A stretch of 64,000 bases of DNA, from positions 1,922,001 to 1,986,000 of the forward strand of contig CP065590.1 of assembly GCA_016025055.1 (NCBI GenBank), in the 5' to 3' direction. Numbering within the stretch: the first letter of the stretch is position 1; the number at the start of each line of letters is the position of its first letter. Positions 1 to 2,789 of this stretch are shown in pieces. The notes below the pieces were generated by a model, which saw only the letters and a program-made list of their open reading frames with translations, searched no databases and had not been told where the DNA came from. Position numbers and translations under genes: made by a program. The DNA is from Chryseobacterium indologenes (GTDB lineage Bacteria > Bacteroidota > Bacteroidia > Flavobacteriales > Weeksellaceae).

Positions 1-414
1 AAAGATGTCAAAGATAAGATTGATACATTCATAATGAATGAATTTACGATAATGCAGCTCTTGCGGGTTTTTATTAAGATGGCGAATAAGAGAATAATTG
101 ACAATTTCTAATAGGGTATCCGTCTCATCCTTGCTATTGCTGATAATTTGTAATGTGTACTTGTAGACCTGATCATCCACATCCTCCAATATTTCATCAC
201 TATCGATATCTATATATTCCTGATAGTGCAAATAAGCTACCAGCCAGCCAAATCCTATAATTCCATTTTCAAAGCTATAGTCATCTGATTGAGAAATGCT
301 TTCAGCAATTGTATTTAGAATGCTTTCACCTTCTCCGAATTGCGATCTTTCATTACTTAGAAATAAACGCAGAGCAATGATGGCTAGTCCATTATCTGTT
401 AATCCTGTGTTCAT
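1..414 (-). CDS. LanC-like (lanthionine cyclase-like) protein, N-terminal part, runs off the left edge
   Basis: The frame is open from ATG at 414 to the window edge (138 codons). The start overlaps the stop of the upstream glycosyltransferase-like gene by four bases (ATGA), so the two are probably translationally coupled. The protein begins MNTGLTDNGLAIIALRLFL. Around residues 49-62 it has an ENGIIGFGWLVAYL stretch, which resembles the helical-barrel repeats of the LanC-like family (GLAGIGW-type motif). The zinc-binding Cys/His residues that define LanC lie in the C-terminal half, which is not in the window, so cyclase activity cannot be judged. In Bacteroidota such proteins occur beside double-glycine-leader peptide genes, as here. 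Assignment is by resemblance only; another alpha/alpha-barrel protein is possible. Confidence 0.55.
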   Translation of the reverse strand, partial: MNTGLTDNGLAIIALRLFLSNERSQFGEGESILNTIAESISQSDDYSFENGIIGFGWLVAYLHYQEYIDIDSDEILEDVDDQVYKYTLQIISNSKDETDTLLEIVNYSLIRHLNKNPQELHYRKFIHYECINLIFDIF

Positions 415-1778
415 AAGAGTAAAAATATAGGGTCTTCTACTTGTATAAGAGATTGAAAGTCTGTAGTTGTGGAACCTTCAGCTTTTTGGATGGTTGTTGC
501 AGTTTCGTATCTTGAGAATTTGCCAATATTTTGTGTTAAAATATCACCATCCAAAACTTTAGAAAAAGCAGTGTCGAAAAGCTGATCAATCTTGTAATAT
601 ACAGGAAACTGGTAATAAGTATAGGGAAATTCGACAATTTTCATAATACTTACAATAGGAATAAGTACAGGGCCTGGAATCCTGATTGTCGTTTTTTCCC
701 GATTATCGCCCGAAAATTCGGCAGCATCAATTACCTCGGTGTCCAGGTGCTTTAATAGATATGCTTTGATCTTATTAAATGTACTTTCGGTTGTATTTTC
801 TACCACAAACAAGGAATTTCTTAATTCAATCCGGTCTCGATCCAACTCCTGTTTTCTCATTTTTATATGCTTTATCAGAGGATAGCTGCAGTTGGTATCC
901 GGAATTGCATATAGATTATTGTCATACCACGGAGCATATTGGATGTAATCTCTTTTGTAAAAGAATAATTCTCTTTCCTGATGACTTCCTGAGTAATGAA
1001 GAATAGCTTTTTCGTGATAATCATGAATCGGATCAGTTGGCCAGCAAAAATCCAACTCAGGATGTATCTGTACCTTCTTATTAAAATACCAGAGATTATA
1101 CAATACAGCCCACATGTCAGCGCACCAGGCTTGTACTTTTTTAGGCATATATTCCGGATTGCCGATCAGTTTCTGTTGTTCATCATTATTAAAATCTTCA
1201 AGTAAACAGAATATTGATTCCGAATCCTCATACACTTTTTCCCAAAACTCCTTTGTAATATGTTTTAATAAATATTGTGCTCCACCAGTGTGAGAATCAT
1301 TTTCTATTACAGTGTCTTCCGAAATTCCTACAATAGAACACATCTTTTTTAAAATTTTTTTGTTCGTGCTTTTTACAACGTAATTTGAATCCAAATAAGA
1401 GCGTGTGTCTGATACATAATTAATCTCATCTGTTTCTACGGATGGAATTCTGCTAAAAATAATATCAGAATCGTGATAAAAAATTATCCGATTATTCAAG
1501 GAAGGAAATTGTTCCCAGTGTTTTGTTAACAAATGAGGACGTATCGTAGAAATGTATTGGTTCCGGGAGCGGGTGTCCGGATATAAAAAGAAGCTTGCAA
1601 ATGTGTGATTGTCTTGTACAAACTGATTGAACTCTTTCTTAAGACCTATAACAGGATTAAATCCAATTACAATGTGTATATCCTTTTTTGATATACCAAG
1701 TTGGCTTAGATTTCTTATCAGAACCTCTAATTGCCAGATAAAATAAATGTCATCAGGTTGAGCGGAAAGAAAAAGCAT
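411..1778 (-). CDS. Putative GT-A type glycosyltransferase in a peptide-modification locus
   Basis: 455 aa, cytosolic, with no signal peptide or membrane segment. The N-terminal ~300 residues look like a GT-A nucleotide-sugar fold: a first strand (MLFLSAQPDD), a metal-binding DxD in a hydrophobic setting (FYHDSDIIF, D103-x-D105) and later CADMWAVLYNLW and EKAILHYSG segments, where GT-A enzymes place acceptor and C-terminal metal-binding residues. The last ~150 residues are a separate region I do not recognise. The gene follows two double-glycine peptide genes after a terminator-like hairpin and overlaps the LanC-like gene. A role in sugar modification of the peptides is therefore reasonable inference, not shown. 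I chose the first ATG, which gives the strand-start MLFL. The exact GT family is uncertain. Confidence 0.6.
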   Translation of the reverse strand: MLFLSAQPDDIYFIWQLEVLIRNLSQLGISKKDIHIVIGFNPVIGLKKEFNQFVQDNHTFASFFLYPDTRSRNQYISTIRPHLLTKHWEQFPSLNNRIIFYHDSDIIFSRIPSVETDEINYVSDTRSYLDSNYVVKSTNKKILKKMCSIVGISEDTVIENDSHTGGAQYLLKHITKEFWEKVYEDSESIFCLLEDFNNDEQQKLIGNPEYMPKKVQAWCADMWAVLYNLWYFNKKVQIHPELDFCWPTDPIHDYHEKAILHYSGSHQERELFFYKRDYIQYAPWYDNNLYAIPDTNCSYPLIKHIKMRKQELDRDRIELRNSLFVVENTTESTFNKIKAYLLKHLDTEVIDAAEFSGDNREKTTIRIPGPVLIPIVSIMKIVEFPYTYYQFPVYYKIDQLFDTAFSKVLDGDILTQNIGKFSRYETATTIQKAEGSTTTDFQSLIQVEDPIFLLL

Positions 1779-1806: not shown

Positions 1807-1839
1807 AAAAAAATCTGATAGACAAAACCTGTCTATCAG
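1807..1839 (-). terminator. Strong hairpin plus T-run between peptide genes and glycosyltransferase-like gene
   Basis: A perfect 10-bp stem (CTGATAGACA / TGTCTATCAG) with a 5-nt loop is followed, in the minus direction, by seven T. It sits in the 72-bp gap between the upstream six-Cys peptide gene and the glycosyltransferase-like gene. It would end most transcripts after the peptide genes and let a minority through to the modifying enzymes. Confidence 0.85.
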
Positions 1840-1850
1840 AAACCAGCTTG

Positions 1851-2054
1851 TTAGATTTTTAAACATCTTAAACAAGAGTAAAATATGCCGCAGGCAGTTC
1901 CCTCAGGGCATTCTGAATTTGAATGGCACATATCTCCGCCACCACAGTATTGATCTGTCGGGTCGTGAAGTCCGCCAAATAAATTTTTCAGTTGTTCTCT
2001 ACTAAGTTTTTCATTAACACCTGATTTAAGATGTTTTAAACTAATTTTTTTCAT
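1851..2054 (-). CDS. Double-glycine-leader six-cysteine peptide precursor (copy A)
   Basis: 67 aa. The leader (residues 1-28) is MKKISLKHLK then EKLSREQLKNLFGG, typical of Bacteroidota bacteriocin-like/natural-product precursors, with predicted cleavage after Gly27-Gly28 by a C39-type peptidase. The 39-residue core has six cysteines (QYC, DMC, SEC, TAC, SC, RC), three prolines or fewer and several Ser/Thr. It could be disulfide-bonded, thioether-bridged or glycosylated. It is paralogous to the next gene upstream: the leaders differ at only a few positions while the cores share only the cysteine number. No transporter or C39 peptidase is visible in the window. A pseudoknot-like element lies 23 nt upstream of the ATG. 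Start: first ATG, matching the paralog. Confidence 0.8.
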   Translation of the reverse strand: MKKISLKHLKSGVNEKLSREQLKNLFGGLHDPTDQYCGGGDMCHSNSECPEGTACGIFYSCLRCLKI

Positions 2055-2077: not shown

Positions 2078-2110
2078 AGTGACTACATAAGCCCAGTCAC
2101 TTTAGGCTTA
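2078..2110 (-). promoter_or_regulatory. Candidate H-type pseudoknot leader element, copy A
   Basis: In the sense strand, stem 1 is AAGCC (2109-2105) with GGCTT (2093-2089). Stem 2 is AGTGACT (2101-2095), lying in the loop of stem 1, with AGTCACT (2084-2078) downstream. Connecting loops are TAA, G and ATGT, lengths compatible with an H-type pseudoknot. It ends 23 nt before the copy A peptide ATG. It matches copy B at 2407-2438 in all loops, with compensatory stem changes. Function is inferred; it could act on translation or mRNA stability. Confidence 0.65.
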
Positions 2111-2172
2111 GATCTGGATAGCTTTTGTGTAAGGTGCTTTATTCAATGGGTGATTGCTCAAACTGTGATTGA

Positions 2173-2385
2173 TTATTCACATTTTGGTCCACAACATTCG
2201 TAACCACCTCTTCCATTACTTCTTGCATCTCCTGTACAATTGTAATTCCAACATAAAGGTTGGCTAAATACACATGCTCCGTTCCCTGTGGCAGCAGCAA
2301 TTCCACCAAACACATTTTTCAATTGTTCCCTTGTAAGTTTTTCATTCACCTCTGCTTTAAGATGTTTTAAATTAATTTTTTTCAT
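2173..2385 (-). CDS. Double-glycine-leader six-cysteine peptide precursor (copy B)
   Basis: 70 aa from the ATG at 2385. An in-frame ATG ten codons upstream (2415) is rejected because 2385 reproduces the leader start of the paralog (MKKINLKHLK) and because the earlier start would place coding sequence inside the pseudoknot element. Leader residues 1-28 end EKLTREQLKNVFGG. The 42-residue core is rich in Gly/Ala/Asn and has six cysteines, including a CC pair near the C-terminus (ECCGPKC). The core is unlike copy A apart from cysteine number, the usual pattern of a leader-conserved, core-diversified precursor family. It is the first gene of the locus and lies 118 bp upstream of copy A. The likely product is an exported, cysteine-rich bacteriocin-like peptide of unknown activity. 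Confidence 0.8.
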   Translation of the reverse strand: MKKINLKHLKAEVNEKLTREQLKNVFGGIAAATGNGACVFSQPLCWNYNCTGDARSNGRGGYECCGPKCE

Positions 2386-2406
2386 GAAAATTGATTTATT
2401 AGTTTT

Positions 2407-2438
2407 AGCAGCCACATAAACCCGGCTACTTTAGGCTA
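2407..2438 (-). promoter_or_regulatory. Candidate H-type pseudoknot leader element, copy B
   Basis: Same layout as copy A. Stem 2 is AGTAGCC (2430-2424) with GGCTGCT (2413-2407), seven pairs including one G-U. Stem 1 is AGCC (2437-2434) with GGTT (2422-2419), including one G-U. Loops TAA, G and ATGT are identical to copy A. The element ends 21 nt before the copy B ATG at 2385. An extra AGTAGCC at 2440-2434 could offer an alternative partner for the 3' arm. Confidence 0.65.
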
Positions 2439-2789
2439 CTGCATAGTACATAAATTCTCTGCAGATTTTATCAAGTATTTTATAGCTAAGGTCATTGTTG
2501 TTTTTGAAAATGGAAGTGGTACTTTCCTAACAAACATATCCAATAGTCCCCGATTTTAAAAAATATAATCCATCAGATTTATAAAATTGGATATTTGAAT
2601 ATCAATATTTTTTACATGTAAATTATTGATTGTCAGTTGGTAGTATTTGCTGTCTTATGTATGTCTCAATTTTTTTATTTCTCTGCATTATTAATTGACA
2701 ATAGCTGTTTTTTATTAATTTAAAAGCTTTGTTGAGATAAATAAATCCCGAAATTCACTCAAAAAGAATATGCTTGCCTACTAAAACAA
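2439..2789. other. AT-rich intergenic stretch upstream of the peptide genes
   Basis: No supportable gene on either strand. On the minus strand a TATGTTTG (2538-2531) fits the flavobacterial -7 box TAnnTTTG and could serve the peptide genes, but I found no TTG at the right distance, so I do not call a promoter. Confidence 0.5.

Follow-up and report, generated by a model that had tools for sequence, protein, structure and literature searches.

Two short elements on the minus strand, each placed upstream of a paralogous gene for a double-glycine precursor peptide, can be drawn as the same H-type pseudoknot, and the substitutions that separate the two copies have preserved every pair of the longer helix. 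We think it moderately probable, judging from sequence and predicted pairing, that each element is a short cis-acting pseudoknot which borders the ribosome landing site and from there sets the translation of its precursor. This reading starts from what has been directly established, i.e. the position of the elements, their potential pairing, the compensatory change in stem 2 and the similar placement of two other pseudoknot families.

Structure and genetic context of elements A and B

Both elements are 33 nt long, with element A at 2078..2110 and element B at 2407..2439 (minus strand) of the window, i.e. the whole 64,000-nt stretch of DNA analysed. They end 23 nt (A) and 21 nt (B) before the ATG codons of the peptide genes. 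Element A has the order S1-UAA-S2-G-S1'-AUGU-S2', with stem 1 (S1, AAGCC/GGCUU) formed by 2105-2109 with 2089-2093, stem 2 (S2, AGUGACU/AGUCACU) by 2095-2101 with 2078-2084, and the loops L1 TAA at 2102-2104, L2 G at 2094 and L3 ATGT at 2085-2088. The corresponding parts of element B, also on the minus strand, are stem 1 (AGCC/GGUU; 2434-2437 with 2419-2422), stem 2 (AGUAGCC/GGCUGCU; 2424-2430 with 2407-2413) and the loops L1 TAA (2431-2433), L2 G (2423) and L3 ATGT (2414-2417).

When aligned, the 33-mers agree in 23 of 33 columns. Seven of the ten differing columns fall in stem 2 and one in a retained stem-1 pair; what remains is a column of the lost outer stem-1 pair, on one side only, and the column before it. 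All seven stem-2 pairs form in A and in B, with columns 13-30, 14-29 and 16-27 altered on both sides and 12-31 changed from U-A to U-G. Stem 1 comprises five pairs in A and four in B; one G-C has become G-U, the outer pair is absent in B and there are zero double-sided changes. The eight loop columns (TAA, G, ATGT) are the same in both copies. In ungapped comparison the A and B leaders share 1/12 and 2/12 positions in the 24 nt upstream of the elements and 5/12 and 2/12 between element and ATG; at 25-48 nt upstream the values rise to 6/12 and 7/12, so the divergence of the flanks is uneven. The initial annotation of this DNA was thus accurate about the two elements and their 23- and 21-nt gaps, the identical loops, the three doubly changed stem-2 pairs with the fourth going from U-A to U-G, and the single G-C to G-U change and lost outer pair of stem 1. 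Its claim of a selected RNA structure is supported for stem 2, where the compensatory changes lie; stem 1 is weak and the complete knot only plausible.

The 24-nt core AGCCTAAAGTNNNNGGGYTTATGT occurs at two places in the window at zero mismatches, and shuffled sequence gave zero matches at up to three mismatches. Knots of such geometry number 14 in the window (A and B included) and 8.7 on average in 20 dinucleotide shuffles (range 2-16): taken singly, a knot of this kind is no rarity by chance. The pattern of change from A to B is unlikely by chance. When the observed 3+4 arm substitutions were placed at random, all seven pairs survived in 1024 of 400000 trials (0.0026). Sliding the 3' partners of stem 2 by 1-3 columns left 20-55% of cells paired with zero double-sided changes, against 95.8% and three in the true register. 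A column shuffle on the two rows, A and B, was not significant (59/500). A 4-bp helix at the stem-1 position is expected by chance in 15.9% of cases, or 1.7% when two G-C pairs are demanded, and stem 1 by itself is weak evidence. Folded alone, both 33-mers adopt one and the same 8-bp hairpin, that of stem 2, with energies of -9.5 and -11.2 kcal/mol. In folds of longer leaders A takes the stem-1 hairpin and B takes stem 2; stem 1 of B is weak (-0.8 to -2.0 kcal/mol). We regard the stem-2 hairpin of A and B as well supported and the whole pseudoknot, as predicted from sequence, as plausible.

The gene behind element A (1851..2054, minus strand) encodes a precursor peptide of 67 aa that matches the TIGR04149 domain with 25.5 bits (cut-off 25). 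Peptide B (70 aa from the ATG; 2173..2385, minus strand) gives no TIGR04149 match and scores 19.8 of the 23.5 bits needed with NF047798. In the clustered protein P0002 (2173-2415) peptide B begins 10 codons further upstream, with a GTG that lies within element B. Such a start would make the 3' arm of stem 2 coding, and the ATG start fits the leader better. Element A may lie on one transcript with B, since it starts only 62 nt past the stop codon of peptide B. A terminator-like hairpin with a T-run (1814..1840, minus strand) separates the peptide genes from those downstream. A scan for sigma-70 consensus promoters found four sites versus 5.4 expected, the consensus not being suited to this phylum. 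The first gene after the peptides (411..1778, minus strand) encodes a 455-aa protein with no Pfam match above cut-off; it is followed, as seen whole in locus L123, by a gene for a 274-aa protein, again without a Pfam match above cut-off, and by a GT2 glycosyltransferase gene. These neighbours hint at a glycosylated product but do not prove it. Folding predicts a hairpin CTGCA/TGCAG immediately 5' of element B (2439..2464, minus strand), which may be due to chance; it has no counterpart before A.

Distribution of the elements

In its own genome the covariance model R1 finds only A and B at E <=10. The element was found in none of the other genomes searched, namely 172 of the same genus (pattern search) and 319 of the family and 394 of the order (model R1), these sets overlapping; the covariation between A and B therefore rests on two copies and one comparison. 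The core pattern was present, at up to three mismatches, in 84 of the 173 same-genus genomes (own counted) and, at zero mismatches, in the two places of its own genome only. None of the 49 foreign pattern loci that were viewed had the same knot before a recognised peptide gene, and the remaining foreign matches were judged on their 24 letters alone. Some of the foreign loci, e.g. L013 and L052, show other possible pairings. Model R1 at E <=10 gave matches in 26 of 320 family genomes (own included; run with stricter filters), the best foreign E value being 0.094; three of the four family loci viewed in context lie inside long open frames. At E <=1 there were matches in 11 of 395 order genomes (own included), and the six of ten foreign loci viewed all overlap long open frames.

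In viral contigs a protein scan and both strict pattern scans yielded zero matches, and a relaxed scan gave five stretches, none of them with the A/B knot. The three pattern matches in GTDB contigs also lacked this knot, and plasmids and phages gave zero pattern matches. A word-based search of 5.8 billion proteins, which reaches only relatives sharing short words, returned a single foreign protein related to the peptides, P0003, which is 64% identical to B. As far as the genomes were searched, A/B is a two-copy feature of one species. The comparison with Rfam proposed in the initial annotation was carried out: Rfam 15 gave zero matches in the window at gathering score, and the 611 bases of 1950-2560 gave at E <=10 three chance-like matches to unrelated families, so the opinion that the elements are not a known riboswitch or leader holds as far as Rfam 15.

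Pseudoknot leaders of other double-glycine peptide genes

The Rfam family DUF805b (RF02914, clan CL00115), which reportedly goes back to a paper of 2017, was detected by Rfam scan in seven of 12 loci of other same-genus double-glycine peptide genes, picked by eye from 30. Its Rfam model contains one helix, and a second, crossing helix can be read in the sequences. In alignment A4 (27 distinct copies from 30 loci) 98.4% of cells are paired, and double-sided change is seen in four of the seven pairs. The C-C/G-G pairs of the crossing stem 2 are fixed by the expression used to locate the copies, which leaves only its outer pair free; this outer pair, absent from the Rfam model, is one of the four. 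DUF805b is present in 59 of 60 sampled genomes of the genus, with 13 copies in the genome carrying A and B (G000), where many other double-glycine genes have, by eye, neither an A/B-type element nor DUF805b. Among the 30 best-scoring loci of a longer list (L171-L200), the end of DUF805b lies 16-26 nt before an ATG open reading frame of at least 30 codons in all 30, and the downstream genes are of leader-peptide type in about 21 cases by eye, or 13 by a strict expression. On account of this distance and these genes, mostly of the leader-peptide type, a common leader of such genes in the genus is a short pseudoknot, placed at a distance close to that of A/B. A search of the open-licence PMC literature found no paper linking DUF805b to this gene type, which is weak evidence that the tie is new.

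DUF805b resembles A/B in being a short (35 nt) H-type pseudoknot before a peptide-gene start. It differs in sequence, in a stem 2 of only 3 bp and in longer, A-rich loops. What A/B has in common with it is the architecture only, an H-type pseudoknot about 20 nt before the start codon; as members of DUF805b the elements were rejected, falling below the 35.6-bit threshold and giving no match to it even at E <=10 in 1950-2560.

Another leader came from a peptide search with three peptides in 395 genomes of the class. It revealed two leaders in genome G909 (L311:6433-6488 and L311:8203-8258), each composed of a helix P1 and a pseudoknot before a double-glycine peptide, with the core AGCCUAAA, a stem of seven pairs in one leader and six in the other, and a GGGC loop. 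Peptide searches of genus g210 (the distant family f55, same class) added further leaders at about 30 places. In this GGAGCAUGC leader the segments GGAGCAUGCACUUU..AUACAUGC form P1, after which the knot follows; its S1 occurs as AGCC, CGCC, CACC, CGUU and GGCUC, and its S2 as UUGCCG/CGGCAA, UACCG/CGGUA, UUGCCU/AGGCAA and UUGCUGU/ACAGCAA. An alignment of 21 leaders, 19 of them distinct (set A6, chosen by helix P1 and a double-glycine ORF only), has 15 pairs in three helices, 89.5% paired, nine pairs being changed on both sides; none of 500 shuffles reached either the paired percentage or the covariation score. A knot-only subset of 17 rows (set A8, those of 31 places with an ordinary loop 1) agrees. 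The S1 helix shows double-sided change in three of four pairs in the larger set and in two of four in the subset; its outermost pair is unpaired in 9/19 and 10/17 rows, respectively. The 31 places represent 29 distinct sequences, and the 32nd is an identical copy without an ATG within 60 nt; weaker or unfetched model matches are outside this count. A double-glycine ORF follows the leader in 28 of the 32 places, a biased association because most places were reached through peptide searches; the gap is 9-30 nt, all but one of these 28 gaps falling within 17-30 nt. In a second genus one copy was found (g319, L372), and in 40 genomes of the leader's taxonomic family three had matches below E 1e-5. 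No Rfam family matched the leader at gathering score in the scanned loci, and at E <=1 there were chance-like matches only. The GGAGCAUGC leader, whose three helices all covary, is not catalogued as an RNA family and merits one of its own.

The pattern AGCCTAAANNNNCNGGG was counted separately in 61 g210 genomes, with 51 places versus 13 for the reversed pattern. Apart from the two of L246 and L257, 46 of the 49 places lie in frames of at least 150 codons and none before a double-glycine ORF, for which reason the excess, mostly coding, was rejected as g210 leader RNA.

The likeness of the GGAGCAUGC leader to A/B consists in the topology S1-L1-S2-L2-S1'-L3-S2' before a double-glycine peptide, with an S1 of about 4 bp, a UAAA-like L1, an S2 of 6-7 bp, a short L2, then S1' and a short L3; the distance to the double-glycine ATG is in most cases 17-30 nt. 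AGCCUAAA and GGGC also recur in several of its copies, as in A and B. Unlike A, the leader carries the extra 5' helix P1 (GCAUG/CAUGC), which the fold predicted upstream of A lacks; upstream of B folding gives another hairpin, of 5 bp. The family model R2 ranked A first and B second of eight matches over 1.5 kb around the elements. Over the whole window it placed A sixth of 20 (7.4 bits, E 3.3) and did not list B, and the knot-only model R3 returned neither at E <=10. In the reverse search of 24 loci with R1, four of 17 matches fell on GGAGCAUGC elements (best 13.7 bits, E 1.1), and the top match (17 bits) lay off them. Common descent is not supported by these values, nor by the missing P1 before A. 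As the family models fail over the whole window, we claim only similar architecture and placement, and the shared AGCCUAAA may reflect chance or convergence.

A possible role in translation and competing explanations

According to PMC6847099, mRNAs of this phylum are without Shine-Dalgarno sequences and structure tunes their initiation; in Flavobacterium johnsoniae pairing is lowered at -20 to +20, structure in that stretch is tied to lower translation, and AUG is avoided at -21 to -1. Given such mRNAs in Bacteroidota, a pseudoknot at near-constant distance before many peptide genes offers a directly testable answer, for one gene class, to how the translation of single genes is set. We infer that A and B lie within a transcript, that their knot is formed in vivo and influences translation, and that the loops are conserved for recognition. 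Stem 1 (4-5 bp) and stem 2 (7-8 bp) would form the H-type pseudoknot in the precursor leader, its end 21-23 nt before the AUG lying just outside the weakly structured -20 to +20 stretch. From there it could act on 30S loading, slowing or helping it with the AUG left unburied, either unbound or in complex with a protein or a small ligand that recognises the loops UAA, G and AUGU; the constancy of the loops while the stems vary is in keeping with their being recognised, whether by a protein, a ligand or the ribosome. How much precursor is made in proportion to the other products of the gene cluster would thereby be set, and peptide synthesis would come under the control of A/B. A leader H-type pseudoknot is also known from the preQ1-I riboswitch, described in PMC11625349 as among the smallest riboswitch folds; in contrast to it, A/B have no Rfam match and their genes are unrelated to queuosine. 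Loop 3 of both elements contains an AUG (2085-2088 and 2414-2417), which in A is a start-stop (AUG UAG) and in B opens an 11-codon frame whose stop overlaps the start of peptide B (AUGA). Kept in both copies near the -21 to -1 zone, this upstream AUG may matter.

The structure might affect the life of the mRNA in place of translation, folded barriers before B and between B and A protecting the precursor messages and the terminator-like hairpin after A limiting read-through, so that precursors would exceed the modification enzymes. An excess of precursor is general in such peptide clusters; the hairpin after A and the position of element A 62 nt past the stop of B, perhaps inside one transcript, would suit this explanation. 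Protection needs neither a set distance to the AUG nor conserved loops, both of which A/B show, and a similar distance recurs in the DUF805b and g210 leaders, which makes us doubt it while granting it some weight. That stem 2 alone is real, as a plain hairpin or as one of two competing hairpins forming a switch, we consider unlikely: in A, stem 2 has a rival in a stem-1 hairpin of up to 8 bp, the longer A leader folds into this rival hairpin while that of B folds into stem 2, and stem 1 of B is weak, but stem 1 is retained in both copies with its G-C to G-U change, and the equivalent g210 helix covaries (three of four pairs, or two of four in the 17-row subset).

Absence of any function, i.e. 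an ancestral duplication whose copies came to differ in this way by chance, would agree with the 8.7 such knots expected per shuffled window and with the lack of the element in related genomes; it is made very improbable by the 0.0026 chance of all seven pairs surviving and by loops that stayed unchanged while the adjoining flanks diverged. We give still less credit, and very little indeed, to a DNA-level operator bound by a regulator at two interleaved inverted repeats. The element does consist of two interleaved dyads, but a DNA-binding protein would be expected to preserve its half-sites, which in stem 2 changed sequence and stayed complementary, and the genome holds no further copies.

Pseudoknot leaders at near-constant distance before exported-peptide genes thus come in three or more sequence forms, of which one had not been catalogued, and such differently spelled knots at a similar place before the same kind of gene hint at common control. 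The two other leader families with covariation support the idea of pseudoknot leaders, yet they are no test of A/B. The analysis also connects DUF805b with a gene type and contributes an RNA family that is missing from Rfam and has covariation in three helices. It is conceivable, though we would not rate the chance highly, that Bacteroidota control exported double-glycine peptides through a post-transcriptional RNA regulon of lineage-specific pseudoknots, unlike in sequence and alike in fold and AUG distance, with a single conserved factor or the 30S subunit itself as their reader; A/B would be the species-level form, DUF805b the form common in the genus and the g210 leader another.

Conserved leaders of other kinds were seen as well. 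In L314 (genome G897) a leader reading GGGCCTAATGATCGGAAGTGCCGATCAAGATCATTA in most copies stands about 24 nt before the ATG of six paralogous double-glycine peptides and allows, by eye, two mutually exclusive hairpins; it has no Rfam match, and neither has the GGGCAACAGCAAACTGAA-like stretch conserved before several double-glycine peptides in L319 and L320 (genome G689). A small ATGTCAATARTGACAT-like hairpin precedes same-genus peptides of the MKKINLKKMKG type in L105, L110, L127 and L133, one of them in the own genome of A and B. In L102 (the same place as L126) and L124 (genus g9) a AAGATGGC...GCCATCTT hairpin lies about 15 nt before the ATG of a MKKIKLNQVNL-type peptide.
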